DNA from: Thioclava sp. GXIMD2076
GTDB taxonomy: Bacteria > Pseudomonadota > Alphaproteobacteria > Rhodobacterales > Rhodobacteraceae
Length of the DNA: 45,429 nucleotides
Direction: 5' to 3'
NCBI RefSeq assembly: GCF_037949795.1
Contig: NZ_CP149935.1
Location: 1-45,429, forward strand
Both the position numbers and the translations under genes were made by a program. Within the stretch, counting starts at the first letter, position 1. Each line of letters starts with the position of its first letter. Shown piece by piece: positions 1,575-43,659 of this stretch. The notes below the pieces were generated by a model, which saw nothing but the letters and a program-made list of their open reading frames with translations, was not told the origin of the DNA and searched no databases.

Positions 1575-2313
1575 CTTTGTGGTGTGCCCCTTCCGGTCTG
1601 TTGCCGAAAATCGGGGCGGGGTTTCTGGCGAGGAAGCGCGAAGCGCGCCCCTCTCCTGAAAGCCTGCCTCCCGGCGAGGGCAGGAGGGGGACCCGTGCAA
1701 GGTTGTCCGTAGGGGCGAAGGGGAGGGGGATCACCCGGCCACGCAGCTCGGCCCCCGGCCGAGACCGTGGTTGGGGAAACCCCTTCGCCCCGTTAAGCGG
1801 ACGGCCTTGCGTGGGGGAACCGGCGGTTCCCTAGACGGACAGGGCGCGCTCGCGCGACCTGGCCCAAGGATGCGGGCGGCGTTCGGCTTGACCGAACCCC
1901 CCGCCAGTGTGATCGCCGCGCTCGCGCGGGGATCTCGAAACCTTCTCAGGCCAGAGCTTTCCAGCCCGCCCCGGCCAAGGGGACGGGGCAGGGCCTTGCA
2001 GGCGACGAGCTGGACGCGCCATCCCACAGCGAAGGATAGCGAGGCGACTTGTGGTAAGGTCTGGCCTCGCAAAAGGCCGAGGGAACCGAGGGAAGATCGT
2101 CACCCGAAGGGCCGAGATTTGCGCGTCGAACGGACCATGCCCCCGCGTCGATCCGCTGGCTCGGGACGAGACGGCGGGCGGCGCACCTGGGGGGCAGGGA
2201 CGGGCGGCGCGGAAAGCTCGGGGAGTGGGCCGGTGCAGCCGGCGCACGAGTAGAGCCCGGTCCTGGGCGGGCGTGTCCTCGAGCCACTGCACGAGGTCAC
2301 GAACGATCAGGGT
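1575..2313 (-). repeat. Structured leader element, copy 1 (full length, variant I)
   Basis: A non-coding element of about 740 bp upstream of the DUF3560 operon, nearly identical to copy 4 (32869-33616). Plus-strand coordinates of perfect or near-perfect hairpins: GCGC-gaa-GCGC at 1636-1646; a long stem of 1705-1709 with 1798-1802 and 1712-1723 with 1780-1791; inside it 1739-1743 with 1766-1770 and a CTCGGCC-ccc-GGCCGAG hairpin at 1747-1763; GGGAACC-ggc-GGTTCCC near 1815; GTTCGG-cttga-CCGAAC near 1880; CCGCGC-tc-GCGCGG near 1917. The distal third (about 2063-2313) is a second module shared with copies 2, 4 and 5. Open frames on both strands here are poor protein candidates. Proposed role: promoter and leader for the minus-strand operon, possibly active as folded single-stranded DNA. 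Confidence 0.85.
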
Positions 2314-2417
2314 TTGCGCACAAAAGACGACAAACGGAGCCTTAACGCTCGCAACGCATGGCAAAATGGCTAGGCTAACAGCCGGAACCATCGCACCTTT
2401 CACAAGGCAGGATAGAC

Positions 2418-2690
2418 ATGACAGAAGAACAAAAACGGATTGGAGAGCTGTTCGGAACGGTCGCAGTTCTCGAAACTGTAATTCAGAACCTAATCGCACA
2501 AGCCTCTGGCCCAGGTTCATCCAACGATATTTTAGAAAAACAGCTTTCTGCAATCATCGAGCAAAACCAAGCGCAACCCGATGATGAATGGGCTGATCAC
2601 CACGCAAGCGGAATGCGCGCTACAGCGACGCGGCTCTCGGCATTCGTGCGGCTCGCGGCTGACCTGAATAACAGGCCAGTTTCACGATGA
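2418..2690 (+). CDS. Hypothetical protein, 90 aa
   Basis: A small acidic protein with no signal peptide or membrane segment; I do not recognise it. An AGGA Shine-Dalgarno lies about 8 nt before the ATG. The residues look helical throughout (LFGTVAVLETVIQNL, then TRLSAFVRLAADL). Codon use is markedly more A/T-rich than in the backbone genes, as in the 271-aa gene that follows 36 nt later. The pair sits directly beyond the distal end of leader copy 1 and looks like acquired cargo. Confidence 0.6.
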   Translation: MTEEQKRIGELFGTVAVLETVIQNLIAQASGPGSSNDILEKQLSAIIEQNQAQPDDEWADHHASGMRATATRLSAFVRLAADLNNRPVSR

Positions 2691-2726
2691 TCTCACAAGA
2701 CACGTCATCACCAGAGACCTTCAAGA

Positions 2727-3542
2727 ATGCCTGCATCGTATAAAAAAACACCCGTGGGCAATCGCATAGACCAATCTTTGGCAAAGGGTCTGGCCCGAGC
2801 AGCTATAAAAATGGCCGACGCAGAGCCCATGCAAATAAGGTGGAGAAAGGTAAATGTTGCGAATACCAAAGGACGGAAACGATACATTGAGGCTTGGGTT
2901 AAGGATTCCAAACGGTGTGGGCGTTATCTCGGCGCAACAGCACGAGATGAATATCGTGAAGCTCTTATCGCACATTATGGCGTCATCGACCTAAGCCCGA
3001 ACCGAACGCTTCTCGCTATATTCCAACATCATTTGCTCATGTCTGGCAAAAGAGGGACTTTTGATCTCGAAGAATACCCCGATCAGTTGATCTGTGCGAT
3101 TGAAGAACACGCCTTGCAACGGATTGCTCAGAGGGCAGGGAGAAAAGAACTACCAGATTTCCTAGAAGTCCTAAGACCAGTATGGGGATGGTGTGATGCC
3201 GCTTCCAAGGTTCGACTACACGGGAGATTTTACGTTCCGCTCCTGGGGGGCTTAGCGATATGTTCCCGCGAAGTTGCTCCACTTCGTTGGACCGATCCAA
3301 AAGACTATGAGATATTTGGGGCACCTGATCCTAGCAAATTTCCAGAGCCGAACGAGAATGACTATTTCATCCGGATTCGGACCTATATTTCTTGGGATAC
3401 TATGCGACCGAATTATCAGGCGCTTTGGGAAAAGTTGGTTGAGGTCGAGGCAATCGAGATTGCGCCGGGTTGTCCCTCATTACGCAATCCAACGACAGAG
3501 CAGAATAATGCTCTCAAGCTGATGGCGAGCGTGCGTCCCTAA
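2727..3542 (+). CDS. Hypothetical protein, 271 aa, low-GC cargo
   Basis: I do not recognise this protein. It is soluble, with a basic N-terminus (residues 1-60, many Lys/Arg), a helical middle (about 90-150, including EEHALQRIAQRAGRKELPDFL) and a region rich in Trp/Pro/Tyr near 200-240 (WTDPKDYEIFGAPDPSKFPE). The Shine-Dalgarno before the ATG at 2727 is weak; an internal ATG at 2811 is an alternative start. The DNA is A/T-richer than the flanks. It follows the 90-aa gene on the same strand and converges with the resolvase gene, whose stop is 8 nt away. A defence or stability cargo role is possible but unsupported by any motif I can see. Confidence 0.6.
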   Translation: MPASYKKTPVGNRIDQSLAKGLARAAIKMADAEPMQIRWRKVNVANTKGRKRYIEAWVKDSKRCGRYLGATARDEYREALIAHYGVIDLSPNRTLLAIFQHHLLMSGKRGTFDLEEYPDQLICAIEEHALQRIAQRAGRKELPDFLEVLRPVWGWCDAASKVRLHGRFYVPLLGGLAICSREVAPLRWTDPKDYEIFGAPDPSKFPEPNENDYFIRIRTYISWDTMRPNYQALWEKLVEVEAIEIAPGCPSLRNPTTEQNNALKLMASVRP

Positions 3543-3550
3543 TAAGAAGC

Positions 3551-20172: not shown

Positions 20173-22263
20173 TCAGCCGACTGCTGCGGTTCGTTCCCCG
20201 CCCTGTCCTTCGGAAAGGATGGCCTCGAACTCGGCCAGCTCGGCGTCTGCTTTCGTTAATGCCTCAACATCGGCCTCGGTCACTTGCGACGGGTCAGACA
20301 GATTGAGGCGCTGCTGTTCGAGAAGATCGAACTCACGTTGCCGCTCGTCCATGTCCCGCGTGGCCTGCGTTACTGCCTTCGACTTCTTCCGCCGCGAAGT
20401 CTTCAGCTTTTCGCGGTGCGGTTTGTCGCTGGCCTGCTTCACCGTAAGGCTCTCGGACGCTTCCTGAGCGGTGGCCGGGGCCGACGCTTCCTCGGGCGCT
20501 GGTGTGGCTGCTTCTGCTGCCTGTGGCGCAGGAGCGGGCGGCGTGGGGTCTTGCGGTGCCGGGGCGTCGGCCTCGGGTGCTGGTGGCTCGCTCGGCTTCA
20601 GGCTCCGCTCTGGGAAGGGCAGCTCGCCCGACTGCGCCTTGTGGATCGCCTTGAAAAAGGGGTCATCGTAATACTTGATGCGCTTCGCCCGGATCGGCAT
20701 CTGAGCATCCACGACCATCACAATGTCATCGAGCGGCATCCGGCGGGCTTCGTCCTCCGGCAACAGCGAGGTTTCCTCGGTGCGTTCCGACATGCTGCGC
20801 CCCTCGAACGGGTTGCGGCCAATCGAGCGCGAGCGCGTCACAACCCGTTTCGTGGTTTTACCCACGGCCTTGCTCAACTCTTCCACGGTCTTTTCGTCCG
20901 ATGGGGTCAGATAGAGCTTCACACCTGCGTTCCCTTGCAGAGCGCGCCGGGTGTTCTCCCCGTAAATCTCGTCCAGCGCCGGAATGGTCTGGGTGACGAT
21001 AGCAAGGTGCCCCTTGTAGGAACGCAGCGTCTCGATGCTCTCAACGACAATCGGCATCTTTCCGAGGCGGTTGAACTCGTCGAGCATAATCATGACCGGC
21101 CAAGGTTCGTCTTTCCCCGGCTCCTTGTCTTGCAGCGAGGAAATCAGGTCGGAGAAGAACAGCCGGATCAGCGGCGCCATCGGCTTCACCATGTTCGGCG
21201 CAACGACCAGGTAGACTGTGAAAGGCTTCTTACGGATCGCACGGAAATCGAAATCCGATTCAATGGTCGCGGCATCAATTGCCGGGTTGCTCCATTGATC
21301 GAGGCCCGAAGTCATCAACAGCGAGATATAAGAGGTCAGCGTGTCGTTGTTGGTCGAAGCCAGCCGCTCGAAAATGAGCTTGGCGGCGCGGTTCTGCACC
21401 TCGTCGCGGCGCTTCATGAACTCTTTCTGCTTGTTCCCGCCCGACGCCGCGATGCGGTAAATCTCGCCCAAGGTTGGCCGCTTCCGCTCGAACGCCAAAA
21501 GACCGGCGGCCACGAACAGGTCGATACCGCCTTTCAAGAGGCCCTGAACTCGGTCGCTGTCTGCTTGGAGAAAGAGCGAAGCGAGTAGCTGAAGCTCCAT
21601 CTGCTTGCGATCAGGATCATCCAGCTCGAAAATCCTCAACAGCGGATTGTAGCGGTGACTCCGGCGATCATGCCAATCAGTCGGCGCGAAGCGATATACC
21701 TTGTCGCCGGTCGATGCCCGGTGGCGAGCGGTGTTCTCGAAATTCTCCCCTTTCACGTCCAGCACCACGGCAGACCCTTTGAAGGTCAAGAGGTTCGGGA
21801 TGACAAAGCCCGTTGTCTTCCCTCGGCCGGTCGGCGCGACGATCAGGGCGTGAGGGAAAACCTGCGACGTGATGAGCTTCCGCCGGGACTTTGGTTTTCC
21901 CATCTTCCCAAGGATAAACCCGGTGCCAGGTTTCCCAAAGAACCCGTTCTTGCCCATTTCCCCAGTCTTCTGCCAATGCGTTTTGCCGAAGCGGGTAAGC
22001 GCGGTCCCAGACAGGACAGCACTCAGAAGGAGGCCCGTGAGGGTAAACCCTCCGATGATGAGGTTGACCTTCTCGAAGTCGTCAGGCCGATACACCCGCA
22101 TGTCGAGGTAGTTCTGTGCGAGCCAGAAAAAGTTGATCTCGGATGACAGGCCCGAAAGACCACTGGCGCTGTAGGTCAGCCACGCCGTCGCCGCCACATA
22201 GCCGATGATGGCGAAAACCAGCGTGACCAGAAAGAGCCCGAGGGCCAGCTTTCCCTTATCCAT
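20173..22263 (-). CDS. virD4: VirD4 type IV coupling protein, 696 aa
   Basis: Coupling ATPase that brings the relaxase-DNA complex to the channel. Two N-terminal membrane helices (about 6-30 and 68-88) are followed by Walker A APTGRGKT at 143-150, the VLDVKGENFENTARHRA region and Walker B VMIMLDEFNRLGKM near 385. Then come LAIVTQTIPALDEIYG and a C-terminal extension (about 570-696) rich in Pro/Ala and then charged, longer than in minimal VirD4 proteins and perhaps substrate-specific. It overlaps the relaxase stop by 8 nt. Confidence 0.96.
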   Translation of the reverse strand: MDKGKLALGLFLVTLVFAIIGYVAATAWLTYSASGLSGLSSEINFFWLAQNYLDMRVYRPDDFEKVNLIIGGFTLTGLLLSAVLSGTALTRFGKTHWQKTGEMGKNGFFGKPGTGFILGKMGKPKSRRKLITSQVFPHALIVAPTGRGKTTGFVIPNLLTFKGSAVVLDVKGENFENTARHRASTGDKVYRFAPTDWHDRRSHRYNPLLRIFELDDPDRKQMELQLLASLFLQADSDRVQGLLKGGIDLFVAAGLLAFERKRPTLGEIYRIAASGGNKQKEFMKRRDEVQNRAAKLIFERLASTNNDTLTSYISLLMTSGLDQWSNPAIDAATIESDFDFRAIRKKPFTVYLVVAPNMVKPMAPLIRLFFSDLISSLQDKEPGKDEPWPVMIMLDEFNRLGKMPIVVESIETLRSYKGHLAIVTQTIPALDEIYGENTRRALQGNAGVKLYLTPSDEKTVEELSKAVGKTTKRVVTRSRSIGRNPFEGRSMSERTEETSLLPEDEARRMPLDDIVMVVDAQMPIRAKRIKYYDDPFFKAIHKAQSGELPFPERSLKPSEPPAPEADAPAPQDPTPPAPAPQAAEAATPAPEEASAPATAQEASESLTVKQASDKPHREKLKTSRRKKSKAVTQATRDMDERQREFDLLEQQRLNLSDPSQVTEADVEALTKADAELAEFEAILSEGQGGERTAAVG

Positions 22264-25081
22264 GTGTCTGCCCCTTCTCGCTGTGGTTCTGGACGTGCTT
22301 CAGGCGGTGCGCGTCATATTCCTCGTCTGCGATCTCGGAAATGACCTCCCGAGTGGCCTCGCTGTTTGCGGTGGCCTCATCGGACTGAAGGTAGGCTTTG
22401 GCGGCGTAGAGCCGTTCCAGCCGGTCATCAATGACCTTCTCCAAAGCATCTGCATCGCCTTCCTTCAGCGCGGCGATCTGGTCGTCATCCAGCTCCCGCT
22501 CGATCTCTTCACGATAAGCGCGCCCGCTTGCCTCGTCCTCGAAGGTCGGGTTGATCTTGTCGTCCCGCTCATGCGCGATGACGCGCTCGATCTCTGGGCT
22601 GTGCGTGGTGCTGGTCAGCTCGCGTTGATCCGCGAACTCACGAATTCGCTCACTGTCGCGAATGTCGATGGCCGTGGCGTAGGTCTCGCCCAGACCACGC
22701 GCGAGGTGGTCGGGCATATCGGGATACCGGGCTTTGAAGTCATCCGCGATAGCAACTTTCACGTCTGCTACATCGTCGGCTCCTGTGGCGATTACCTCCG
22801 CCTCAATACGGTCGTAGAGGTCGCGATCAACAATCGCCTGCTGATAGGGCAAGTCCCTGTAGATCAGGTCGGGCGAAGTCAGGATTTCAGGCTTATCGCG
22901 CAGATAATCGGCCTGCTCGGCTGCGATCCGTTCCCGCGCCATGTCTTCGATCTGACCAAGCTCAGACATGGCTTGAACTCGATCATAGCGCGTATCGAAG
23001 TCCTCCGATTGGTCGGCGGACATAAGCTCGTCACGGATACGGCTGCTCATGCGATCAAGGCTGGCCTGTTCGATATGGGCCTGATGCGAAACCCCGCCCT
23101 CTCTATCGCCTTCAACTGCGTAAGGCCGAATTGCGTCGTTGAACTCGCGCAGACGCTCCTGCTCGAACCGTTCGACCTGGGCACTGTAGCCGTCGAAGTC
23201 CTCGTGTTCGTGCGCTTGGAACTCGCGCGTGTCTTCTCTGGTCAACCCGTCGCGCATCTGCCCGCCGTAACGATTGGCCGTATCGCGCAACATCGCGTCG
23301 GCCCGCTGCTGATCTTCAACCGACAGAGACCCGTCGCTGCGCTCCTTCGCCAATGCGGTGAAGGCGGTTGCCAACTCGGCATTGGCGCTGACCGTGTTCT
23401 CGCCTTGTGCAATACGATCTCGGCCAATGACCAGCGGCTCAAACTTGGCGTAGTCATAGCCCGATCCGTCGAACTCGGCCCGAACCCCCTGCTCCACTTC
23501 GGCAACAGCATCAGCCTCCCGCGCCGCGATACCTTCTGTCTCGGCGCGAAGAACACCGGCTTCGGCGTTCAATTGTTCTGCGGCAAACTCGCGGTAATCC
23601 GTAGCTTCCGACTGTTCGCGCATCGCATCGGCATAGGCGGTTTCGTCGGTGTCGATAAGGTCATTACCACGCAACACCTCCCCACGCTCCAACGCCTGAC
23701 TAAGCTGGACATGGATTTGGTCGAGCCGGTCGGATGCTTGCTCAAGGTCTTCGCGGCGTTCGAGATTGAGCCCGTTGGTCTGTGCAATCTTCTGCAAATC
23801 ATCGGACAGCCATTGGCGTTCGAGCGCGGCATTGCTCGCGGTCGTCTCGATCCGGGAAACCACGGTTTCGGACGAAATGCCCGTGCCCCTCAAGGCGGTC
23901 TCGATCTGCGCGCGCATCTGAGGCTCGCGCAGCCGATCCAGCGCGTCCCTGTTCACGTTGTCCTCGGTGTAGATGCCCCCCTCGGTGGGCGGTTCGCTGA
24001 GAGTGTGTGAACGGGTGCCAAGCGGCTGCATATGCTCAACGCCACGGTAGATTTGGTTGAGGCGAGCCTGTGCCTGGGGGCGCTGTGCTTCGGGGGTGCT
24101 GGCGACCATCGCCTCGACGCGCTCCATGCGCTCGGCAAAACTGCTCTTCAGGTCGTCAAAGGACTGTTGGTCGGCCATGTAAACTTCTCCTGTCTGTTCA
24201 AGTTGCCCACCCCGCGCCAGAATTTCGCCAGCACGGAACAAGGCGTTTGAAATATCCTCCCGGTTCTCGGCCGACGCCTCGGCGGCCAGCGAACGGTAAA
24301 CCTTCGTGTTGCTTGCGATCTCGGCCAGCGCCCGGTCCAGGTCGCGCCCGATCCGAACGCGCCCAACCGGCTCCCTGCCCTGCTCCTTTGCGGCGTAGAT
24401 TTCGCTGGTCCTCGGCGTATACGTCACGACGCCCCGATCAAGACGGCGGGTAGCCTCCAAGCTCACGCCATACTTTTCAGCTTCTTCGACCATCGCCGTG
24501 CGGAAATCGTCATAATTGAAGTGATGATCCCGACCGAGATAGAAGAACTCACCTTCTTGAGAACGGCGGTTCAGAACCACATGGGCGTGAGGATGCGCCC
24601 GGTCCTCGTGAACTGCGATCAGATAGTCGAAATTCCGGTCTTCGGTTGCGAAAAATCGCTGGGCTACGTCAGTGGCAATATCCCGAACATCGGTGCCCCG
24701 AGTGCCAACAGGAAAGGACATGAGAAGATGGGTCGTGTTGCCCATCTTCGGATTGAAGCCCCTTTCCCACGACTCAGAATAACGCTCGACCACGCTCTTG
24801 ATCTCGTCAGCCGAAAGCCGGTCCTTACCATCAAGAATGCCACGGCTATCAACGATGTGGGAGCTTTTCGTCGTCAGGTATTCGAGCTGGTTTATGAGCT
24901 GACCCTTGGTATGGGTGCCGCCCGACCGGATCGCCTTGAAAACCGCCGACCGACCACCACGCGCGGCCCGAACCATCTGGGTCCGCTTCGCTCCGAGACC
25001 CTGCATTGAGCCTCTGACCTTGCTCCAACCATCCTCAAAAAGCTCGCCCGTGACCTGGGCGACAGCGTTACTTCTCACCAT
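22256..25081 (-). CDS. MobP-type relaxase, 941 aa
   Basis: DNA-nicking protein that starts conjugal transfer at oriT. Motif I is probably YLTTKSS with catalytic Tyr68; motif II is HLLMSFP at 118-124; motif III HEDRAHPHAHVVLN spans 158-171 with the metal-binding histidines of the VirD2/MobP fold. After about residue 300 the protein is a very long charged helical region rich in Glu/Arg/Asp with no helicase or primase motif I can see. That tail probably serves protein contacts or secretion. It is followed by virD4 (8-nt overlap) and preceded by mobC (14-nt overlap). Confidence 0.93.
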   Translation of the reverse strand: MVRSNAVAQVTGELFEDGWSKVRGSMQGLGAKRTQMVRAARGGRSAVFKAIRSGGTHTKGQLINQLEYLTTKSSHIVDSRGILDGKDRLSADEIKSVVERYSESWERGFNPKMGNTTHLLMSFPVGTRGTDVRDIATDVAQRFFATEDRNFDYLIAVHEDRAHPHAHVVLNRRSQEGEFFYLGRDHHFNYDDFRTAMVEEAEKYGVSLEATRRLDRGVVTYTPRTSEIYAAKEQGREPVGRVRIGRDLDRALAEIASNTKVYRSLAAEASAENREDISNALFRAGEILARGGQLEQTGEVYMADQQSFDDLKSSFAERMERVEAMVASTPEAQRPQAQARLNQIYRGVEHMQPLGTRSHTLSEPPTEGGIYTEDNVNRDALDRLREPQMRAQIETALRGTGISSETVVSRIETTASNAALERQWLSDDLQKIAQTNGLNLERREDLEQASDRLDQIHVQLSQALERGEVLRGNDLIDTDETAYADAMREQSEATDYREFAAEQLNAEAGVLRAETEGIAAREADAVAEVEQGVRAEFDGSGYDYAKFEPLVIGRDRIAQGENTVSANAELATAFTALAKERSDGSLSVEDQQRADAMLRDTANRYGGQMRDGLTREDTREFQAHEHEDFDGYSAQVERFEQERLREFNDAIRPYAVEGDREGGVSHQAHIEQASLDRMSSRIRDELMSADQSEDFDTRYDRVQAMSELGQIEDMARERIAAEQADYLRDKPEILTSPDLIYRDLPYQQAIVDRDLYDRIEAEVIATGADDVADVKVAIADDFKARYPDMPDHLARGLGETYATAIDIRDSERIREFADQRELTSTTHSPEIERVIAHERDDKINPTFEDEASGRAYREEIERELDDDQIAALKEGDADALEKVIDDRLERLYAAKAYLQSDEATANSEATREVISEIADEEYDAHRLKHVQNHSEKGQTHG

Positions 25082-25640
25082 CAGCCAACTCCTTCAGGGC
25101 AGCATTCACTGTCAAAGTCAAATGGCTGCGGCGGCGTTCAGTCAGCGAACGAACCTGGTCTGCGAAGTCCAAGACGAACCCAGCGAGGCTCCGCATCTGC
25201 GCCAAACTGCCCTCTCCGAAGCTGGGGCGCATGCCCTTTCTGTTAGCTTCGTTCATCCGTTTGGCGATTTGAGTGACGTTATTGCCCACACGATTGAGCG
25301 CCGCGCGGAAAGCGTTCAGCTCTGAAGCCATGTGCTCATCGGCTACAAAAATGCCGTTCGCGCTCTGGATCAACTGCCGCAAACCATCTGAGCGACGATT
25401 GATCCCCTGCCGGGAAAGCACCGCATCAAAGGTCGCAAGCTCTTCCTCGGTGAGAGTAACGCTGATTTGCCGGGTGCGAACGCCGCTGTCATGCCGCCGC
25501 GTTTTTTCACGCTTGATCGTGTGATGGATCGTCCGAACCGTCACGCCGAACCGCGCCGCAAGCTCATGCGGCATCACGCCTTTTTCGCGCTCACGGACGA
25601 TTTTCAATCGCTCAAGGTCTGTCAAACGGCGGTGCGGCAT
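25068..25640 (-). CDS. mobC: MobC-like relaxosome accessory protein, 190 aa
   Basis: An N-terminal helix-turn-helix segment (LTDLERLKIVREREKGVMPHELAARFGVTVRTIHHTI) is fused to a ribbon-helix-helix/MobC region with RQISVTLTEEELATFDAVL and the MobC hallmark ALNRVGNNVTQIAKRMNEA at about 114-132. Such proteins bind next to the nick site and help the relaxase. The extra HTH suggests that it also represses its own promoter, which lies in the hairpin-rich region to its right. First gene of the mob operon. Confidence 0.9.
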   Translation of the reverse strand: MPHRRLTDLERLKIVREREKGVMPHELAARFGVTVRTIHHTIKREKTRRHDSGVRTRQISVTLTEEELATFDAVLSRQGINRRSDGLRQLIQSANGIFVADEHMASELNAFRAALNRVGNNVTQIAKRMNEANRKGMRPSFGEGSLAQMRSLAGFVLDFADQVRSLTERRRSHLTLTVNAALKELADGEK

Positions 25641-25860
25641 GGTGTGAAAATACAGTCCCTATTTCCTGCCACCTTCATACAGACGAATAGGCTTCGACGC
25701 AATCAAGGATTGTGTCGAGTGTCGAAGCCGTTAAGTTCGGCTGTATTCCGCTTCAGGCACGGCTTGCCCGTGCCGTGATCGAACCCACGGTTCGATCCGG
25801 GCCGCTCCGGCCCGTCCCCCCAAAAATCGCCCGTGAGACGCCTCAAGCGTCTCTCCGCAG
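25641..25860. other. Candidate oriT: cluster of perfect hairpins upstream of mobC
   Basis: Five inverted repeats in 165 bp. 25690-25698 with 25721-25729 (GGCTTCGAC arms) encloses an imperfect dyad around AAG at 25705. 25756-25762 with 25768-25774 (GGCACGG). 25777-25785 with 25789-25797 (GATCGAACC, 3-nt loop). 25798-25803 with 25809-25814. 25835-25841 with 25847-25853 (GAGACGC). The position upstream of mobC-relaxase is where MobP plasmids carry oriT. The nick site cannot be read directly; the outermost dyad near mobC is the likeliest relaxase region. From 25861 to 26044 I see nothing further. Confidence 0.6.
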
Positions 25861-29040: not shown

Positions 29041-29220
29041 TCAAAGCTCGATGCCGGGGCGCAAATTGCCGTCTGGGTCGAGCCATTGCCGCGCCTCGGC
29101 GCAAGCGTAGCAGATGCAAGAGCCCTCGCCCTCGATCGTCACCGGCGCGAAATAGACCGGCGGGTTAGTCCTGCCGCATTTGCGGCAGGACAGGCGGGGC
29201 AGGGTGAGGGGGCCGCTCAC
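29041..29220 (-). CDS. Small zinc-ribbon-like protein, 59 aa
   Basis: The GTG start at 29220 overlaps the ardC stop by 4 nt (GTGA). Four cysteines in the pattern SCRKCG and CICYAC form a likely zinc site, with a hydrophobic TNPPVYFAPV stretch between them. It is the second and last gene before the terminator at 29008. Coupling to ardC suggests a related role in protecting incoming DNA, but this is inference. Confidence 0.7.
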   Translation of the reverse strand: MSGPLTLPRLSCRKCGRTNPPVYFAPVTIEGEGSCICYACAEARQWLDPDGNLRPGIEL

Positions 29221-30104
29221 GCTGCGGCCCTTTCCTCTTCGCGGTTCTCGCCCTTAACCAAAAGGTCGCTGGCCTTCTGGGCTTCGCTCGCGGCCTTGAA
29301 AATCAGGCGCTTGTCATCCTTCAACGCGCGCAGCCAGCCCTTGATATAGGCGCCAGACTGTCCAAAGTCGGGAGTCAGGCCAAGGCGAGCGCAAACCATG
29401 CAATTGCCGATCTCGGCAATTAGTTCCTCGAACGCATAAGCCTTGCGGTCGGTGAAGCGGGAAAAGCGGTCAAGGCGGGACTTGTGGCCGGTCCAATGGG
29501 TCCCTTCGTGGGCAAGCGTGGCGTAGTAGCCTGCCGCGTCGTGGAAGGTCGCAATCGGCGGCATGTGAATGAAATCCTCCTCGATATTGTAGAACGCCCG
29601 GGGATCTTCGCTTGTGCGGATTTCCGCGCCGGTCGCTGCAAAGAAGGCGTCAAGCTCGGGGTTGGCTTCGGTGCCAAGGTCGCGGGCTTCTTCGGCGGGG
29701 GTTCCGTAATACTCGGCGGGCAAGCCGTCGATCTGCTCGGCATTGAAAACCCGATATGCCTTCAGATAGGGCAGGCGGCGCTCTTCGCCGGTCGCCTCGT
29801 CCTCGCGCTCGAAAGTGCCATACTTGACCACGGTGGAAGACTTCTCGCCCTTGCGGACCTGCCCGCCAGCTTCCTGCGCTTGGCGGTAGGTGAACCAGCG
29901 GGGGGCGCGGTAGCCTTTGGCGTCGGCGGCAAGCCACAACATCAGCACGTTGATGCCCGAATAGGGTTCGCCATTGCTGCGCAGCGGGAACGGTGCGCCA
30001 CCCTTTTCGCCGGTCCACGGCTTGCGCCATGCGGGGGTGCCTGCCTCGATGCTGGCAATAATGCTGTCGGTGACGTGGGCGTGAAGATCGAATTTAGCAG
30101 CCAT
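29217..30104 (-). CDS. ardC: ArdC-family antirestriction protein, 295 aa
   Basis: The N-terminal ArdC ssDNA-binding domain (DUF1738) starts FDLHAHVTDSIIASIEAGTPAWRKPW and continues PYSGINVLMLWLAADAKGYRAPRWFTYRQAQEAGGQVRKGEK. The C-terminal zincin metallopeptidase-like domain has HEGTHWTGH with the HExxH-type site at 199-203 and a following AFEELIAEIG glutamate helix. ArdC of pSa is known to bind and protect incoming single-stranded DNA from restriction. The ATG at 30104 follows the AGGAGG at the end of leader copy 2; an open frame extends upstream only through the leader. This is the functional anchor for reading the region as a leading region. Confidence 0.95.
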   Translation of the reverse strand: MAAKFDLHAHVTDSIIASIEAGTPAWRKPWTGEKGGAPFPLRSNGEPYSGINVLMLWLAADAKGYRAPRWFTYRQAQEAGGQVRKGEKSSTVVKYGTFEREDEATGEERRLPYLKAYRVFNAEQIDGLPAEYYGTPAEEARDLGTEANPELDAFFAATGAEIRTSEDPRAFYNIEEDFIHMPPIATFHDAAGYYATLAHEGTHWTGHKSRLDRFSRFTDRKAYAFEELIAEIGNCMVCARLGLTPDFGQSGAYIKGWLRALKDDKRLIFKAASEAQKASDLLVKGENREEERAAA

Positions 30105-30108: not shown

Positions 30109-30869
30109 GGCCTCCTTGTGGTGTGCCCCTTCCGGTCTTGGTGCCGAAAATTGGGGCGGGGTTTCTGGCGAGGTCCGCTGCAAGCGGCCCTCTCCTGAAA
30201 GCCTGCCTCCCGGCGAGGGCAGGAGGGGGACCCGCGCAAGTTCCATGACAAGGAAGGGGGGGAGGGGGATCACCCGACCACGCAGCTCGGCCCCCGGCCG
30301 AGACCGTGGTTGGGGACACCCCCCCTGACGCCGCTCATGGTGCTTGCGTGGGGGAACCGGCGGTTCCCTAGACGGACAGGGCGCGCTTGCGCGTCATGGC
30401 CCAAGGATGCGGGCGGCGTTCGGCTTGACCGAACCCCCCGCCAGTGTGATCGCCGCGCTCGCGCGGGGATCTCGATATTCTCTTGTCGACCAAGTGGCCG
30501 CGGGCGCGACCTGGGGGCTGTCCGCCCCCGCGCCTATCGGCGCTCCCCCGAGGATATTTTCAGGAAGATGAATGGAAAAACGCACGGCGGTCTGGCCCCG
30601 CAAAAGGCCGAGGGAACCGAGGGAAGATCGTCACCCGAAGGGCCGAGATTTGCGCGTTGAACGGACCATGCCCCCGCGTCGATCCGCTGGCTCGGGACGA
30701 GACGGCGGGCGGCGCACCTGGGGGGCAGGGACGGGCGGCGCGGAAAGCTCGGGGAGTGGGCCGGTGCAGCCGGCGCACGAGTAGAGCCCGGTCCTGATCG
30801 CGCGTGTCCTCGCGCTACTGCACGAGGTCACGCGCGATCAGGATTTGCCCGAATGCGGCATCACTTCTA
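30109..30869 (-). repeat. Structured leader element, copy 2 (full length, variant II)
   Basis: Element of about 760 bp upstream of ardC, closest to copy 5. It differs from variant I at paired positions: CCGCT-gca-AGCGG (30175-30187) replaces the GCGC hairpin, and the long stem is built from CCATGA (30243-30248) with TCATGG (30335-30340) and AGGGGGGG (30255-30262) with CCCCCCCT (30319-30326). Inner hairpins are unchanged. An extra segment of about 80 bp containing element C (30519-30575) interrupts it relative to copy 5. It ends in AGGAGG before ardC. Confidence 0.85.
30519..30575 (+). repeat. Element C, copy 2, inserted in leader copy 2
   Basis: G-run/C-run hairpin then CCCCCGAGGATATTTTC and AGGAAGATGAATGG, as at 5170-5240. 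Copy 5 of the leader lacks it at the same place (about 40890), so the two leaders give a filled and an empty site. Confidence 0.65.
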
Positions 30870-31216: not shown

Positions 31217-31660
31217 GACCTCCTTGTGGTGGTGCCCTGTTCGGTCTGTTGCCGAAAATCGGGGCGGGGTTTCTGGCGAGGAAGCGCGAAGCGCGCCCCT
31301 CTCCTGAAAGCCTGCCTCCCGGCGAGGGCAGGAGGGGGACCCATGCAAGGTTGTCTGTAGGGGCGAAGGGGAGGGGGATCACCCGGCCACGCAGCTCGGC
31401 CCCCGGCCGAGACCGTGGTTGGGGAAACCCCTTCGCCCCGTTAAGCGGACGGCCTTGCGTGGGGGAACCGGCGGTTCCCTAGATGGACGGGGCGCGCTTG
31501 CGCGACCTGGCCCAAGGATGCGGGCGGCGTTCGGCTTGACCGAACCCCCCGCCAGTATGATCGCCGCGCTCGTGCGGGGATCTCGAAACATTCTCGGGCC
31601 AGAGCTTTCCAGCCCGGTCTTGGGCGGGCGTGTCCTAACGTTACTGCACGAGGCCACGAA
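31217..31660 (-). repeat. Structured leader element, copy 3 (internally deleted, variant I)
   Basis: It keeps the whole gene-proximal module (31217-31615) and only the last 45 bp of the distal module. The long-stem arms are GTCTG (31353-31357) with CGGAC (31446-31450), giving a G.T pair on the plus strand where other copies have G-C. Located upstream of the 91-aa gene. Confidence 0.85.
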
Positions 31661-31723
31661 CTACCGCCGCTTTGCTCCGAGGGCGACGATGCACAGCACC
31701 AACAAGGAAATTGCGAGGACCAT
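31661..31723 (-). CDS. Possible 20-aa membrane peptide
   Basis: ATG at 31723 with a strong AAGGAG 9 nt upstream encodes a single hydrophobic helix (MVLAISLLVLCIVALGAKRR) ending in basic residues. It lies just downstream of the terminator at 31775-31799 and abuts the end of leader copy 3. The ribosome-binding site and the textbook one-helix shape are the only evidence; a toxin-like or regulatory peptide is possible. Confidence 0.4.
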   Translation of the reverse strand: MVLAISLLVLCIVALGAKRR

Positions 31724-32868: not shown

Positions 32869-33616
32869 GGCCTCCTTGTGGTGTTGCCCTGTCCGGTCTG
32901 TTGCCGAAAATCGGGGCGGGGTTTCTGGCGAGGAAGCGCGAAGCGCGCCCCTCTCCTGAAAGCCTGCCTCCCGGCGAGGGCAGGAGGGGGACCCGTGCAA
33001 GGTTGTCCGTAGGGGCGAAGGGGAGGGGGATCACCCGGCCACGCAGCTCGGCCCCCGGCCGAGACCGTGGTTGGGGAAACCCCTTCGCCCCGTTAAGCGG
33101 ACGGCCTTGCGTGGGGGAACCGGCGGTTCCCTAGATGGACGGGGCGCGCTTGCGCGACCTGGCCCAAGGATGCGGGCGGCGTTCGGCTTGACCGAACCCC
33201 CCGCAAGTGTGATCGCCGCGCCCGCGCGGGGATCTCGAAACCTTCTCAGGCCAGAGCTTTCCAGCCCGCCCCGGCCAAGGGGACGGGGCAGGGCCTTGCA
33301 GGCGACGAGCTGGACGCGCCATCCCACAGCGAAGGATAGCGAGGCGACTTGTGGTAAGGTCTGGCCTCGCAAAAGGCCGAGGGAACCGAGGGAAGATCGT
33401 CACCCGAAGGGCCGAGATTTGCGCGTCGAACGGACCATGCCCCCGCGTCGATCCGCTGGCTCGGGACGAGACGGCGGGCGGCGCACCTGGGGGGCAGGGA
33501 CGGGCGGCGCGGAAAGCTCGGGGAGTGGGCCGGTGCAGCCGGCGCACGAGTAGAGCCTGGTCCTGGGCGGGCGTGTCCTCGCGCTACTGCACGAGGTCAC
33601 GAACGATCAGGATTTG
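32869..33616 (-). repeat. Structured leader element, copy 4 (full length, variant I)
   Basis: Almost identical to copy 1 over about 740 bp. I noticed only scattered substitutions, for example CAGG to CGGG near 33137, which keeps pairing on the plus strand as G.T, and a loop change in the hairpin near 33217. The distal end contains the stop codon of the 55-aa gene at 33607. Confidence 0.85.
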
Positions 33617-33774
33617 CCATGCCCGGAAAACAAAGCATCAAGCCTCTTCTGGGCAAAGGACACCAACGCCTCCGCGTCGTTCAGAGCATCGACCGGATCA
33701 CGCTGCATCAGCGCCGTTTTTGCATCACGCAGCCAAGTCGATTGCGTCAGCTCGATCTCTCTCGGATGGGGCAT
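33607..33774 (-). CDS. Small protein, 55 aa, upstream of leader copy 4
   Basis: ATG at 33774; the frame encodes a helical protein (PREIELTQSTWLRDAKTALMQRDPVDALNDAEALVSFAQKRLDALF) and stops at the TGA in the conserved distal end of leader copy 4. It is divergent from vapBC. I do not recognise it. Clean helical character supports translation, but the ribosome-binding site is weak. Confidence 0.5.
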   Translation of the reverse strand: MPHPREIELTQSTWLRDAKTALMQRDPVDALNDAEALVSFAQKRLDALFSGHGKS

Positions 33775-37445: not shown

Positions 37446-37454
37446 CCCTCTCGC

Positions 37455-37576: not shown

Positions 37577-37731
37577 GAGTGTCATCCTCACCACAAGGAT
37601 AATCGGGATGCTCGCGGCTCAACGCGCTGGCTTGCGGAGCGGCGGCGGAAATCTCGGGGCCTGATAGTTCTGGTTTAGTTCCATCCTAGCACGGGCCATC
37701 AGGCGTTGCCAGCGCAGCGGATGATATGACT

Positions 37732-37995
37732 TCAGAATAGGGCCAGTTGCTCGGGCTGCGGACGGATACCGACACGCCCGCGCGGGTCGATGATCCAGCC
37801 TTCGCCATCACGCTCGACACTGGCGTCCGGCCCGTGCTGGTCGATGAAGGCATGATCCGCTTCGACCTTGCGGCTCATGTGAAAATCGTTCGCCATGTGG
37901 CCGCTCGGGCGGCGGCACCATACGCCGGGGGCGCGGCCACAGTCAGGGCAACGGACGGCAAGGACAGGGTGACGGTGGGCGGTGAAGTCAGGCAT
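37732..37995 (-). CDS. Small zinc-finger protein, 87 aa
   Basis: CPDCGRAPGVWCRRPSGHMANDFHMSRKV (about residues 17-45) matches the small CxxC...C...H DNA-binding zinc-finger pattern that I recall from phage and plasmid proteins. The ATG at 37995 has GGAGG 5 nt upstream; longer frames to 38109 are less likely. It follows the ParB-family gene by 89 bp and is the last gene before the terminator. DNA binding is inferred from the family. Confidence 0.72.
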   Translation of the reverse strand: MPDFTAHRHPVLAVRCPDCGRAPGVWCRRPSGHMANDFHMSRKVEADHAFIDQHGPDASVERDGEGWIIDPRGRVGIRPQPEQLALF

Positions 37996-38084
37996 GGGAA
38001 CCTCCATCGAAATTTGGCAAGGGTGTGATCGGCCATCCGGGCGGCGCGGGGTGCGGTCGGGGCGTAAACGCCCCGACCTCGATT

Positions 38085-39929: not shown

Positions 39930-40003
39930 TGGGACATTCCTTGTGGTGATGTTCGGTTTTGTGTTATGGGTGCCCCAGCCCTTACGGGCTGAGGCGAGGG
40001 GGC

Positions 40004-40123
40004 TTAGATGGCCCCGTGCTGGATCAGGAAGCGGCGTCCGATGCCAAAGTGATCGCCCTTCCTGAGAAGCGCCCAAGCCTCGGCAATGCGGCGCTTCAAA
40101 GTGTCATCGCTAATTGTTCTCAC
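40004..40123 (-). CDS. Small protein, 39 aa, unusual start
   Basis: A frame ending TAA at 40004 encodes TLKRRIAEAWALLRKGDHFGIGRRFLIQHGAI, a basic helical peptide. The strong AAAGGAGG lies almost on top of the only in-frame GTG (40123). With normal spacing the start would be an ATT at about 40114, and the nearby ATG is out of frame. It sits 74 bp upstream of the ParB-family gene and could be a leader or a small protein. Confidence 0.45.
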   Translation of the reverse strand: MRTISDDTLKRRIAEAWALLRKGDHFGIGRRFLIQHGAI

Positions 40124-40234
40124 CTCCTTTCGGCTTTCTGAGGGTTGGTTGGGGGGGCGTTGTCCGCCCCTCCCTTGTGGCCTGCTCGACAGGCCAGCCT
40201 CGGCGCGGGGCAGGGAGAAACCCCGCTGCCGATC

Positions 40235-40486
40235 TCAGACGGACAGGTCCGCGTAGGTTTCCTTGTCCTCGTAGCGAATGATGGGTTCGCCCTGCTCGGT
40301 GGTGCCGCCCCATGCGGGTCCGATGAAGCCCGCGATCTTCGGATGCCCCTGAAGCTCGGAACGGGTGCGCGGGTTGGACGAAATGCCGGTGATGCTGGTG
40401 CCCATGTCCTCGACCCATTGCTCGATGCAATCGGGATACACGGTGGTCATGCCTTCCTCGGTCGTGACGACAATCTGATAAGCCAT
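40235..40486 (-). CDS. Unknown protein behind leader copy 5, 83 aa
   Basis: Starts MAYQIVVTTEEGMTTVYPDCIEQWVEDMG directly after the AGGAGG of leader copy 5. A small acidic alpha/beta protein with one Cys and a Gly/Pro-rich middle (GFIGPAWGGTTEQGEPII). No family recognised. Control shared with ardC makes it a candidate early-expressed, protective gene; its function is not visible. Confidence 0.75.
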   Translation of the reverse strand: MAYQIVVTTEEGMTTVYPDCIEQWVEDMGTSITGISSNPRTRSELQGHPKIAGFIGPAWGGTTEQGEPIIRYEDKETYADLSV

Positions 40487-40490
40487 GTCT

Positions 40491-41180
40491 GGCCTCCTTG
40501 TGGTGTGCCCCTTCCGGTCTTGGTGCCGAAAATCGGGGCGGGGTTTCTGGCGAGGTCCGCTGCAAGCGGCCCTCTCCTGAAAGCCTGCCTCCCGGCGAGG
40601 GCAGGAGGGGGACCCGCGCAAGTTCCATGACAAGGAAGGGGGGGAGGGGGATCACCCGGCCACGCAGCTCGGCCCCCGGCCGAGACCGTGGTTGGGGACA
40701 CCCCCCCTGACGCCGCTCATGGTGCTTGCGTGGGGGAACCGGCGGTTCCCTAGACGGACAGGGCGCGCTTGCGCGTCATGGCCCAAGGATGCGGGCGGCG
40801 TTCGGCTTGACCGAACCCCCCGCCAGTGTGATCGCCGCGCTCGCGCGGGGATCTCGATATTCTCTTGTCGACCAAGTGGCCGCGAGCGCGACCTGGAGAC
40901 TGTCTGGCCCCGCAAAAGGCCGAGGGAACCGAGGGAAGATCGTCACCCGAAGGGCCGAGATTTGCGTGTCGAACGGACCATGCCCCCGCGTCGATCCGCT
41001 GGCTCGGGACGAGACGGCGGGCGGCGCACCTGGGGGGCAGGGACGGGCGGCGCGGAAAGCTCGGGGAGTGGGCCGGTGCAGCCGGCGCACGAGTAGAGCC
41101 CGGTCCTGGGCGGGCGTGTCCTCGAGCGACTGCACGAGGTCACGAACGATCAGGATTTGCCCGAAGGCGGTATCACTTCC
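40491..41180 (-). repeat. Structured leader element, copy 5 (full length, variant II)
   Basis: Near-identical to copy 2 but without the element-C-containing insertion. It carries the variant II hairpin (CCGCT/AGCGG) and variant II long-stem arms. Homology to copy 2 extends past the distal module to a GCGG.ATCACTTC string near 41175. Confidence 0.85.
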
Positions 41181-41211
41181 GACACCTTGACTGTTCCGCT
41201 ATTGTTCTTCG

Positions 41212-41472
41212 ATGATTCGTGAAACTTTCCTTGCCCCGCTTTATACTCTCCGTGTCAACAGCCTTGGGGCTGAACATGCTCTCCGCTTGAGTTGCATGTG
41301 CGGCGCGGGGCCGTGGTATCTAAACGGTTTCTGGTTGCGCCAGCGGTATCCAGAAACCGAGTTCCTGCGCTGGATCGCGAACAACCTACCGTGTCCCGCC
41401 TGTCGAACGCGGGACTGCATGGCCTGGGGCATTGTCGAGGCTGTTCATGAGGTTGGAAAATTGGCGAGGTAG
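41212..41472 (+). CDS. Small Cys-rich protein, 86 aa
   Basis: Plus-strand gene with CMCGAGPWYLNGFWLRQRYPE and, about 30 residues later, CPACRTRDCMAW: five Cys that could bind zinc. No signal peptide. The ribosome-binding site before ATG 41212 is poor; a TTGACT lies near 41187. Element C follows its stop at once, as with other plus genes, which supports it as a gene. Confidence 0.55.
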   Translation: MIRETFLAPLYTLRVNSLGAEHALRLSCMCGAGPWYLNGFWLRQRYPETEFLRWIANNLPCPACRTRDCMAWGIVEAVHEVGKLAR

Positions 41473-41473
41473 G

Positions 41474-41541
41474 TTGGGGGGCCGTCTGCCCCCCGGTCCT
41501 CCGGCCCTCCCCCCGAGGATATTTTCGGGAAGATGAATGGC
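41474..41541 (+). repeat. Element C, copy 4
   Basis: Nearly identical to copy 1 (5170-5240): G-run/C-run hairpin, CCGGTCCTCCGGCCCTCC, GAGGATATTTTCGGGAAGATGAATGG. It lies between the convergent 86-aa and GIY-YIG genes. Confidence 0.7.
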
Positions 41542-41543
41542 GG

Positions 41544-42011
41544 TCATTCGAGATCGAGCTTCACCGGATCGCCCCGCTCGGAAGGTCGCCAGCCTGAATC
41601 GAACAAGGAAATCCGGCCATAGCTCGGCCAAGCAATCTTGAGACGGGCTATCAGCCTAAGACGGGTCGCCTGCTCGGAAATCAGGGTCGCCACGTCGCTG
41701 ACCGAAGCGCCATCGCGCAAGAGATACCATTCTCGGGTGCGGCTTCTGTCACGGTAGGCCAGTCGGCGGACTTCGGCATGACACCGAGCTTCGAGCGCGA
41801 AGGCGTGAGGCATTCTCACCGTCTGGATGATGACCATGCGACCTTGGACGCTGCGGGAAAGCTCTTTCCGGCGATCAACGGTCTTCCGTTGTGTGAAACC
41901 GATCTTAATCCGGCGCGGGTCGGCCTCGTCGCAGGTCAGATAGACGGTGCCCCAAGCTACGTTCCGGCGAAGCCAGCGGATACGGGTGAAGCCCCGCGAC
42001 CGGCGGGCCAT
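41544..42011 (-). CDS. GIY-YIG-like (T5orf172/MUG113) protein, 155 aa
   Basis: GTVYLTCDEADPRRIKIGFTQRKTVDRRKELSRS (about 21-54) followed by HAFALEARCHAEVRRLAYRDRSRTREWYLL matches the T5orf172/MUG113 group of GIY-YIG nucleases: a VYL strand, a KIG..T strand, an arginine and a Glu (ALEARCH). The N-terminus is basic. It is the last gene of a three-gene minus operon with two membrane proteins; it shares 1 nt with the preceding stop. Nuclease activity is inferred from the family. Confidence 0.78.
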   Translation of the reverse strand: MARRSRGFTRIRWLRRNVAWGTVYLTCDEADPRRIKIGFTQRKTVDRRKELSRSVQGRMVIIQTVRMPHAFALEARCHAEVRRLAYRDRSRTREWYLLRDGASVSDVATLISEQATRLRLIARLKIAWPSYGRISLFDSGWRPSERGDPVKLDLE

Positions 42012-42205
42012 TAGGCCCGCTCCGGCCCGGTGATCCCGTAAGGGTTCGCCGGGCCGAATTTGATACCGTCCTGTTCAAAAAAACCCATGCTCCCGAGTAG
42101 CCATGCACGGTGAAACTCGGTTCCGGCGATAAGGCGGCGCACCTGGCGCGGCATCACCCGGCCAGAGTAGCCCGAGAGGTAAAGAAACATGAAAAGACGG
42201 TTCAT
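42011..42205 (-). CDS. Small protein, 64 aa, middle gene of GIY-YIG operon
   Basis: Starts MNRLFMFLYLSGYSGRVMPRQVRRLIAGTEFHRAWLLG; a short hydrophobic beginning and a Gly/aromatic second half. Its ATG overlaps the 85-aa gene stop by 4 nt, and its TAA shares a base with the GIY-YIG gene start. Two-sided coupling is the evidence that it is translated. Not recognised. Confidence 0.6.
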   Translation of the reverse strand: MNRLFMFLYLSGYSGRVMPRQVRRLIAGTEFHRAWLLGSMGFFEQDGIKFGPANPYGITGPERA

Positions 42206-42459
42206 GCTTCTTCTTTCACGGACTGCCACATCAGGACTGCCAGAAAGATCGACAGGCCAAAGGTGACACCAAAAATCCAGCCGTTGTATTCCACGACCCG
42301 CGCCAGAAGCCACGGCATATCTGTTCCGGTCAATCCAGCAATGACCGGCGGCGCAGTCGTGATAAAGGCCGCCATGATCGGGAGCATGGCGCAAAGCCGA
42401 TAGCGTTGCGGGACAAAAATCAGAACCAGTAAAAGAACGAGTGCAAATGCAGTTACCAT
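42202..42459 (-). CDS. Small membrane protein, 85 aa
   Basis: Three hydrophobic segments: MVTAFALVLLLVLIFV, a middle AMLPIMAAFITTAPPVIAGL and a last GWIFGVTFGLSIFLAVLMW. First gene of the operon with a 64-aa protein and a GIY-YIG protein. The TATTTTAT-rich stretch just upstream (42465-42485) is the most A/T-rich spot nearby and may be its promoter. A membrane protein with a nuclease suggests entry or exclusion functions, but this is speculation. Confidence 0.7.
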   Translation of the reverse strand: MVTAFALVLLLVLIFVPQRYRLCAMLPIMAAFITTAPPVIAGLTGTDMPWLLARVVEYNGWIFGVTFGLSIFLAVLMWQSVKEEA

Positions 42460-42544
42460 GATAAAACTCCATATTTTATTGGGATATTACGGGATTGCGC
42501 GAGGCGGGCCAACACGAGATTGACCCGCCCGCCGATGCGCTAGG

Positions 42545-42889
42545 TCATGCCTCGATCTCCCACGGCTTCGGCGCGAAAAGGTCTTTGGTCTGATAATCAG
42601 GGTGCGGTAGCGGCTCGACGTTCTCGGCCATGAAAACCACGGTGGATTGCCGGATTTTCGGCTCGCCCCGGTCGTTTCGTTCACGGGTCTTGATGACGGC
42701 GGAATACCGCCCCGGCTTCTCCGGGTCTGGCAACACAGCGTAGCTCTTTGGAGACTTGGGTAGGCCAAGCCAGCGCGTCCCCCACACCTCGGGGGGGGAC
42801 GCGCGTTCAAACTCGATGACGGCCAGAAGATTGCGCTTGTCCGTCGCTGTCAGGTGCAAGCCGTCGATCAGGCGGATTTGGGGTTTCAT
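42545..42889 (-). CDS. Unknown protein, 114 aa, third gene of leader-6 operon
   Basis: A soluble protein with mixed charge (IRLIDGLHLTATDKRNLLAVIEFERA, later SAVIKTRERNDRGEPKIRQSTVVF). No recognised domain. Its ATG overlaps the 69-aa gene stop by 4 nt. Last gene of the operon behind leader copy 6. Confidence 0.75.
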   Translation of the reverse strand: MKPQIRLIDGLHLTATDKRNLLAVIEFERASPPEVWGTRWLGLPKSPKSYAVLPDPEKPGRYSAVIKTRERNDRGEPKIRQSTVVFMAENVEPLPHPDYQTKDLFAPKPWEIEA

Positions 42890-43095
42890 GCCGTCCCTCC
42901 TTCCTCGTTGATCCGCGCGAAAAGCGCGTCGATTTGTTCCAGCGAAAGCGGCTCAACCTCGCCGCAATCGGTCTGAATGTCGGTGATGCCTGCCGGGACT
43001 TCTTGAGCGGCTTGCAGGAGCCGAAGGCCCGCAAGAACAGTGGCAAGCTCGGCGCGGTCCAGGATCACGCCTTTGGAGGGTTGGGGGGCACTCAT
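42886..43095 (-). CDS. Unknown protein, 69 aa, second gene of leader-6 operon
   Basis: ATG at 43095 overlaps the 71-aa stop (ATGA). A helical acidic protein (DRAELATVLAGLRLLQAAQEVPAGITDIQTD, then PLSLEQIDALFARINEEGG). An upstream in-frame ATG at 43125 lies inside the 71-aa gene and is less likely. Not recognised. Confidence 0.7.
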   Translation of the reverse strand: MSAPQPSKGVILDRAELATVLAGLRLLQAAQEVPAGITDIQTDCGEVEPLSLEQIDALFARINEEGGTA

Positions 43096-43307
43096 GCCCC
43101 CGCCTCCGTCCAGTCGGTCGCCCAAATGTCCATCGTGGCGATGGTGTTTCCTGCGGGGTCGATAAGGCGCAACTCGGGCTTGATCGTAGCGGCGGCGTGG
43201 TGGTCGCGGCCCATCATGCGCAGCATGGTTTCGCTGGTCGAATAGATCGCCTGCGGCTCGGACTGGCCTTCATATTCGGCCAAGAGAGAAAAAAGACGTG
43301 TGGACAT
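43092..43307 (-). CDS. Unknown protein, 71 aa, first gene of leader-6 operon
   Basis: Starts MSTRLFSLLAEYEG behind leader copy 6. It is a paralogue of the 74-aa protein at 28204 (YSTS, LR..G, DP.G..IA..D.W...W shared). It heads a three-gene, fully coupled operon of unknown proteins. Retention of two copies in different settings suggests a useful function, not identifiable here. Confidence 0.75.
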   Translation of the reverse strand: MSTRLFSLLAEYEGQSEPQAIYSTSETMLRMMGRDHHAAATIKPELRLIDPAGNTIATMDIWATDWTEAGA

Positions 43308-43311
43308 AGAT

Positions 43312-43659
43312 TGCCCTCCTTGTGGTGGTGCCCTGTCCGGTCTGTTGCCGAAAATCGGGGCGGGGTTTCTGGCGAGGAAGCGCGAAGCGCGCCCCTCTCC
43401 TGAAAGCCTGCCTCCCGGCGAGGGCAGGAGGGGGACCCATGCAAGGTTGTCCGTAGGGGCGAAGGGGAGGGGGATCACCCGGCCACGCAGCTCGGCCCTC
43501 GGCCGAGACCGTGGTTGGGGAAACCCCTTCGCCCCGTTAAGCGGATGGCCTTGCGTGGGGGAACCGGCGGTTCCCTCGATGGACGGGGCGCGCTTGCGCG
43601 ACCTGGCCCAAGGATGCGGGCGGCGTTCGGCTTGACCGAACCCCCCGCCAGTGTGATCG
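43312..43659 (-). repeat. Structured leader element, copy 6 (truncated, variant I)
   Basis: Only the gene-proximal module remains; homology stops at 43659, where low-GC DNA begins. The stem arm CGGAT (43542-43546) pairs with GTCCG (43449-43453) through a G.T on the plus strand, and the inner hairpin loop is CTC instead of CCC. Being complete as far as the hairpins near the gene, it may be the minimal functional unit. Confidence 0.85.

Follow-up and report, generated by a model that had tools for sequence, protein, structure and literature searches.

Frpo1 and Frpo2 of plasmid F are predicted single-strand folds without which the genes behind them are not expressed early, and their shut-off has been proposed to occur upon second-strand synthesis; single-strand promoters of this kind have been tested experimentally in F and ColIb-P9 (the available part of PMC9849209). 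Published catalogues were compiled by BLAST (E 1e-6), starting from these promoters and from candidates selected for a -35/-10 consensus and a fold, according to the accessible sections of PMC11541004 and PMC12826799. Here, we analyzed a stretch of 45,429 bases, the window, which is the whole contig NZ_CP149935.1 of Thioclava sp. GXIMD2076, and a structured leader element that it carries in six copies. We put the probability at about three in four that this element is a structured single-strand leader or promoter working from the transferred plus strand. The best reading would be a single-strand promoter family of Rhodobacterales plasmids in which no similarity to Frpo is detected.

A sequence-only reading of the window had proposed that six copies of a long leader, all in one orientation, drive separate operons. 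The six copies lie where it had placed them, in one orientation and each directly before a minus-strand gene. Together with the nic-like site discussed below, they are as follows:

1575..1932, minus strand: copy 1, proximal module, leader of the DUF3560 gene (224-1564) and the methyltransferase gene
1986..2334, minus strand: copy 1, distal module
25660..25669, plus strand: nic-like site TATTTCCTG^C, just before the MobC-like and relaxase genes
30109..30469, minus strand: copy 2, proximal module, leader of ardC (29217-30104)
30502..30868, minus strand: copy 2, distal module
31217..31580, minus strand: copy 3, proximal module, leader of an unknown gene of 91 amino acids (30937-31212)
31611..31675, minus strand: copy 3, fragment of the distal module
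32869..33232, minus strand: copy 4, proximal module, leader of an unknown gene of 73 amino acids (32643-32864) and the next two genes
33286..33636, minus strand: copy 4, distal module
40491..40851, minus strand: copy 5, proximal module, leader of a gene of 83 amino acids (40235-40486), followed by a ParB-like gene (38085-39929)
40850..41179, minus strand: copy 5, distal module
43312..43669, minus strand: copy 6, proximal module only, leader of a gene of 71 amino acids (43092-43307)

The proximal module of about 360 nucleotides (nt) is present in all six copies and ends in a ribosome-binding site and start codon. It is preceded by a distal module of about 350 nt in copies 1, 2, 4 and 5, whereas copy 3 retains only a distal fragment of about 50-65 nt (31611-31675) and copy 6 has none. 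The claim that all copies share the same ordered hairpins therefore does not hold for the full length. In a 300-nt block compared without gaps, copies 3, 4 and 6 share 97-98% identity with copy 1. For copies 2 and 5 the value in this block is 61%, because gaps break the register; gapped BLAST gives them 86% identity to copy 3. The tail CACCACAAGGA is exact in five of the six copies, and copy 1 has CACCACAAAGGATTG. Two more exact CACCACAAGGA sites stand outside the copies, at 39938 (minus strand, before the ParB-like gene) and at 37589 (plus strand), so the element cannot be recognised by its tail alone. Searching the genome (5 contigs) with copy 3 gave matches on the window contig only.

The genes behind the copies are those described before, namely the DUF3560 and methyltransferase pair, ArdC and small genes, with Pfam backing for ArdC and DUF3560. 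By comparison with plasmid pP92_f, the operon behind copy 6 reaches a T5orf172/GIY-YIG-type gene (41544-42011). The small genes behind the window copies had no match in a Pfam search, and ten leading-region proteins matched no PADLOC model at E 0.001.

Relatives of the element are widespread. In PLSDB, BLAST with a 748-nt query matched 55 plasmids and BLAST with only the proximal part matched 40; most of the genera listed belong to the Rhodobacterales, and 3-6 places were matched in several records. An exact pattern found 50 stretches in 31 other genomes and had no match among viral contigs. Among 394 genomes of the family to which the window belongs, 23 match at E 0.001, some of them weakly. 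A profile search yielded 59 distinct near-complete proximal elements, which were used for the structure analyses. Among the 78 distinct elements that have their end within the fetched DNA, 76 stand before a ribosome-binding site with an ATG frame no shorter than 40 amino acids. Judged by eye from their first residues, these frames encode ArdC, a DUF3560 protein, a protein of about 530 amino acids and several small families. The element occurs family-wide in Rhodobacterales plasmids and is not confined to this RepC type.

In eleven pairs picked by hand, leaders within one plasmid that precede different genes are 84-93% alike, whereas those that precede the same gene in separate plasmids mostly reach 72-82%, with one at 96%. 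The copies thus seem, from such identities, to be homogenised within one plasmid, although the window itself carries two sub-types that are 86% alike. A Leisingera plasmid (L016; 15060-15640, 20380-21000 and 25791-25994) has variant leaders in which the distal module and hairpin H1 are joined to another remainder with a TTTCACCACAAGAGG tail. Two further copies, L025 5229-5400 and L040 1482-1629, located before DUF3560-like and ardC-like genes, respectively, lack the central part (profile positions 102-296 and 101-325); these short copies are possibly natural deletions.

A single-strand promoter requires that the entering strand be the template. The nic-like site TATTTCCTG^C, which resembles MOBP/VirD2 and T-border nic sites, is found at the equivalent place in the oriT region of four related plasmids, upstream of the relaxase operon. 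As it is on the plus strand, the plus strand is the transferred, leading strand, and each of the six operons is read from it as template, which is the polarity that the sequence-only reading had called for. Measured from the nic-like site, the copies are at 4.4, 5.5, 7.2, 14.8, 17.6 and 21.3 kb; the relaxase gene is at the far end of this order.

That reading had also pointed to the position of the element relative to relaxase genes in other plasmids, and the relatives found there are concordant: the element and the PF03432 relaxase are on one strand in 17/17 contigs and for 26/26 copies. The elements occupy 30 contigs in 24 genomes, of which 17 contigs carry a relaxase match and 13 are without one on that contig; this polarity test used 26 of the 50 pattern loci and 24 of the 31 genomes. 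Strands also agreed in 17/17 PLSDB records, several of them near-duplicates, in a comparison that covered 17 of the 40 element records and, on the relaxase side, the 60 rows listed of 588. Two Paracoccus plasmids, read separately, showed the same agreement, and the Leisingera plasmid has both its nic-like site and its variant leaders inverted.

The proximal module is a row of hairpins, and both arms of the largest one have been replaced jointly among the relatives, by at least four unrelated sequences. RNAalifold on the plus strand of 47 sequences (long-helix region) gave 40 pairs, of which 19 have changed on both sides, and 97.2% of the cells in this region pair. Double-change cells number 190. 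Shuffles gave 51 +/- 5.3, with 0 of 500 reaching the observed count, and sliding the partners gave no more than 48. The alignment of 47 excludes 12 of the 59 rows (two repeated references, near-duplicates, third-type arms, L073 and L082). As RNAalifold on the whole mixed alignment mispaired H1, the hairpins were then handled domain by domain. In the distal module, 31 of 71 pairs show at least two Watson-Crick types (26 sequences).

Helices accept G.T or G.U more readily than A.C. Since a G.T on one strand reads as A.C on the other, isolated mismatches reveal which strand folds. On the gene strand, the isolated mismatches have A.C:G.U ratios of 123:16 in the proximal module (23 vs 6 sites) and 59:6 in the distal module. 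The long arms, with 48 distinct arm pairs and row L050 excluded, gave 46:1 plus 40 other mismatches. By hairpin, the ratios are 5:0 for H2, 3:0 for H3 and 23:1 for H6, where 20 of the 23 A.C mismatches represent a single inherited position; H1, H2 and H6 were located by pattern in 53, 44 and 53 of the 59 elements. Parsimony on one 17-pair helix (25 sequences) counted 12 changes from paired to A.C and 0 from paired to G.U, and composition alone predicts an A.C:G.U ratio of 0.8 to 1.4.

Two controls bracket these values. RNase P RNA from the same bacterial family (30 loci, including row L128, which looks out of register) had a G.U:A.C ratio of 99:22 on its sense strand, which was inverted on the antisense strand. 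The Frpo leader before ssb gave a gene-strand A.C:G.U of 31:2, or 8 vs 2 sites, in 13 sequences (the F leader, a second F copy and 11 relatives, with L140 excluded), which are close kin, so that sites outweigh cells. Because the gene-strand mismatches of the element are rich in A.C like those of Frpo and the reverse of those of RNase P, selection is, as these alignments indicate, acting on the fold of the entering (template, plus) strand and not on that of the mRNA leader. The proposal of a folded single strand is upheld by this comparison, its signature being that of the Frpo region of F and opposite to that of a structured RNA.

Folding energies agree with this. Folded as DNA, which had been suggested as a check, copy 4 reaches -120.8 kcal/mol on the plus strand (z -7.4) and -104.2 on the minus strand (z -4.3). 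The plus strand is the more stable one in 57/58 sequences with DNA parameters and in 58/58 with RNA parameters (58 of the 59 elements, one with an N being excluded). In shuffles made for 18 of these 58, the z of the strand difference is in the expected direction for 16.

Several results weigh against a single-strand promoter. Hairpin H1 alone has no bias in its isolated mismatches (3:2). When all consensus-pair cells are counted, isolated or not, the proximal ratio falls to 146:97 (Frpo 33:19, RNase P 48:133), which we put down to arms of different types that resist alignment. Further pair types are barely above those in shuffles (50 vs 45.3; 18 of 500), in a structure that was predicted from the same alignment. 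About half of the plus-strand energy margin is also present in the dinucleotide shuffles of the 18 sequences (mean z difference -1.1), and after these shuffles the strand-energy argument is supporting and no longer decisive. No -35/-10 pair recurs among the 59 proximal elements beyond close relatives. The region 29000-45429 has five sigma-70-like sites, all on the plus strand, where 3.2 are expected on both strands, so that their lack on the minus strand says little. Finally, the operon of ssb, a classic early gene, has a different leader.

Regarding promoter boxes, looser rules detect an 8-of-12 pair, AGGACA-19-TCTACT, that recurs in the distal modules of copies 1, 2, 4 and 5. On Frpo itself, a scan of this kind detects next to nothing: it reaches 8 of 12 at best in the copy that precedes ssb, and it finds no site in the second copy. 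An island [GC]AT..T preceding the last hairpin was considered as a -10 box and rejected, as its A and T also close a three-base loop.

The leader of ssb (35460-35810) at 35811-36010, minus strand, is conserved, and its plus strand folds into one long, imperfectly paired hairpin whose stem is AT-rich (AAAAATCGG..CCGATTTTT). In 5/5 plasmids the template strand has the higher stability, and this leader is possibly a second class of single-strand promoter. The identical 16 bases AAGGAGACACATCATG, start codon included, open ssb in the window (35808-35823) and in F (L098), that is, in an alphaproteobacterial and a gammaproteobacterial plasmid.

From the fold, the polarity, the adjacency to a start codon and the Frpo-like signature, we infer that the element has promoter activity. 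The entering plus strand would fold into a fixed row of hairpins before each leading-region operon, and the folded strand would recruit RNA polymerase and serve as the template. ArdC, the DUF3560/methyltransferase pair, the ParB-like protein and the small genes could then be made before a second strand exists, and conversion to double-stranded DNA would remove the fold and end the burst of expression. The single-strand promoter put forward by the sequence-only reading is supported in its polarity and its plus-strand fold; that RNA polymerase starts at the element, at which position, and how it is switched off, we likewise infer.

The alternative that survives best, although we consider it improbable, is that the folded entry-strand element is mainly an ssi or priming site, or a protein-binding site, with genes adjoining it incidentally. 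It fits the fold and the polarity equally well. A distal-module fragment is located directly before mobC/oriT in the Leisingera plasmid, other distal modules stand without a recognised proximal module, and the 1997 Frpo paper covers, by its title, both transcription and primer synthesis. However, a priming site needs no downstream gene, and in 76/78 proximal elements the end coincides with a ribosome-binding site and start codon, with the site inside the conserved block. A priming role may coexist with the promoter role.

Considerably less probable is a structured RNA that is transcribed off the plus strand, antisense to the leaders. The mismatch signature shows the folding strand and does not distinguish DNA from RNA, which would allow for such an RNA. 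It would leave the conserved ribosome-binding site unexplained, and no Rfam family matches: the whole window has 0 matches at the gathering threshold, and 29000-45429, with copies 2-6, has three at E 0.095-0.51, none of them in an element. Moreover, the genes at whose start codons the conserved block stops are unrelated, which would require a plus-strand promoter within the block, and the single-strand promoter region of F shows the same signature.

An ordinary mRNA leader (a riboswitch, attenuator or protein-binding 5' untranslated region) behind a normal promoter would account for a long conserved block that extends up to the start codon of several operons, but we judge it very unlikely, as the isolated gene-strand mismatches are A.C and not G.U in all three counts (123:16, 59:6 and 46:1), the reverse of RNase P. 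The weakest explanation, that no functional fold exists and the A.C mismatches arise from a mutational bias between the strands, such as deamination of cytosines while the transferred strand is exposed, would yield them on the gene strand and would still imply a single-stranded plus strand, but it is largely refuted by the compensatory changes (190 double-change cells vs 51 in shuffles) and by the joint replacement of both arms in at least four different sequences.

A broader statement appears to us evenly balanced: that Rhodobacterales single-strand promoters have a separate origin unrelated to Frpo, lack canonical boxes, serve up to six operons and are homogenised by recombination, and that an excess of G.T over A.C mismatches on the transferred strand is a general comparative test by which such entry-strand elements can be detected in any plasmid from sequence, with no need for experiments.

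The methyltransferase gene spans the contig ends and is 93.5% identical over 201 amino acids to its pP92_f counterpart. Because it runs over the ends, the window is a complete circular plasmid. It encodes RepC, a MobA/VirD2-type relaxase and a MobC/NikA-like protein, and the VirB and VirD4 gene names were assigned from a gene order matching that of pP92_f. The genes referred to above include:

224..1564, minus strand: DUF3560 protein (Pfam)
22256..25081, minus strand: relaxase, MobA/VirD2-like (PF03432)
25068..25640, minus strand: MobC/NikA-like accessory protein (HTH_23 above the Pfam cut-off; MobC/NikA matches below cut-offs)
29217..30104, minus strand: ArdC (ArdcN and MPTase-PolyVal)

The nearest relatives are Phaeobacter plasmids such as pP92_f. 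In this close relative, from Phaeobacter inhibens (L009/L010), floR and sul2 stand beside the leading region, with insertion sequence (IS) elements. Our guess, from its lone RepC, is that the window plasmid belongs to the RepC_soli type, which reportedly goes back to Birmes 2021 and likewise comprises RepC plasmids of Rhodobacteraceae, but which is a plasmid class and not a promoter. RepC_soli is named in the accessible parts of PMC11481893 and PMC9025767. An array of degenerate 14-nt repeats (26036-26410) is located between the nic-like site and a VirC1/ParA-like gene (26410-27138); the relatives have the array too, and its role is possibly that of an overdrive-like relaxosome site. At 5171, 30506, 34875 and 41471 the window has four copies, 63-100% alike, of a GC-rich inverted repeat of 72 nt that contains CCCCCGAGGATA and is perhaps a common terminator of these bacteria.

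In the open-licence literature searched, comprising main texts and represented by accessible parts of the sources (including PMC11541004, PMC12826799, PMC9025767, PMC11481893 and PMC2864571), we found no such element in Alphaproteobacteria. The STAXI motif (RF01728) is similar in that it is structured, occurs in repeats and lies close to genes for SSB, antirestriction and other DNA-handling functions, and its authors (Weinberg 2010) raised single-stranded DNA as a possibility and favoured RNA, according to the available part of PMC2864571. STAXI differs in consisting of pseudoknot repeats and in its occurrence in Enterobacteriales, and the elements have no Rfam match in a library that we assume to include it.

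Comparison with F itself gave no match by a profile search of its leading region (20 kb; only F) at E up to 10, and blastn at E up to 1 had no F match among its 12 best rows, all of which were from the Leisingera plasmid. If the reading as single-strand promoters is true, a sequence-unrelated family in MOBP/VirB plasmids of Alphaproteobacteria would evade BLAST-based catalogues, early expression from the entering strand would be a wider strategy, and the unknown small genes would become candidates for establishment or anti-defence functions. The strand-specific mismatch test lets sequence alone address whether a leader works as single-stranded DNA.

Like Frpo1 and Frpo2 of F, which have homologues in ColIb-P9 and related enterobacterial plasmids, the elements are located in the leading region, their genes point toward oriT and the transferred strand is the template. 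They also share with Frpo a long folded leader ending at a ribosome-binding site, several near-identical copies per plasmid and the G.T-wobble signature of the template strand, and the leading region of F likewise holds SSB, a ParB-like protein, a methylase and an antirestriction gene. In contrast to Frpo, the elements have no detected similarity to the F leading region and no convincing -35/-10; they come in six copies and consist of two modules, they reside in MOBP/VirB plasmids of Alphaproteobacteria, and ssb has another leader.

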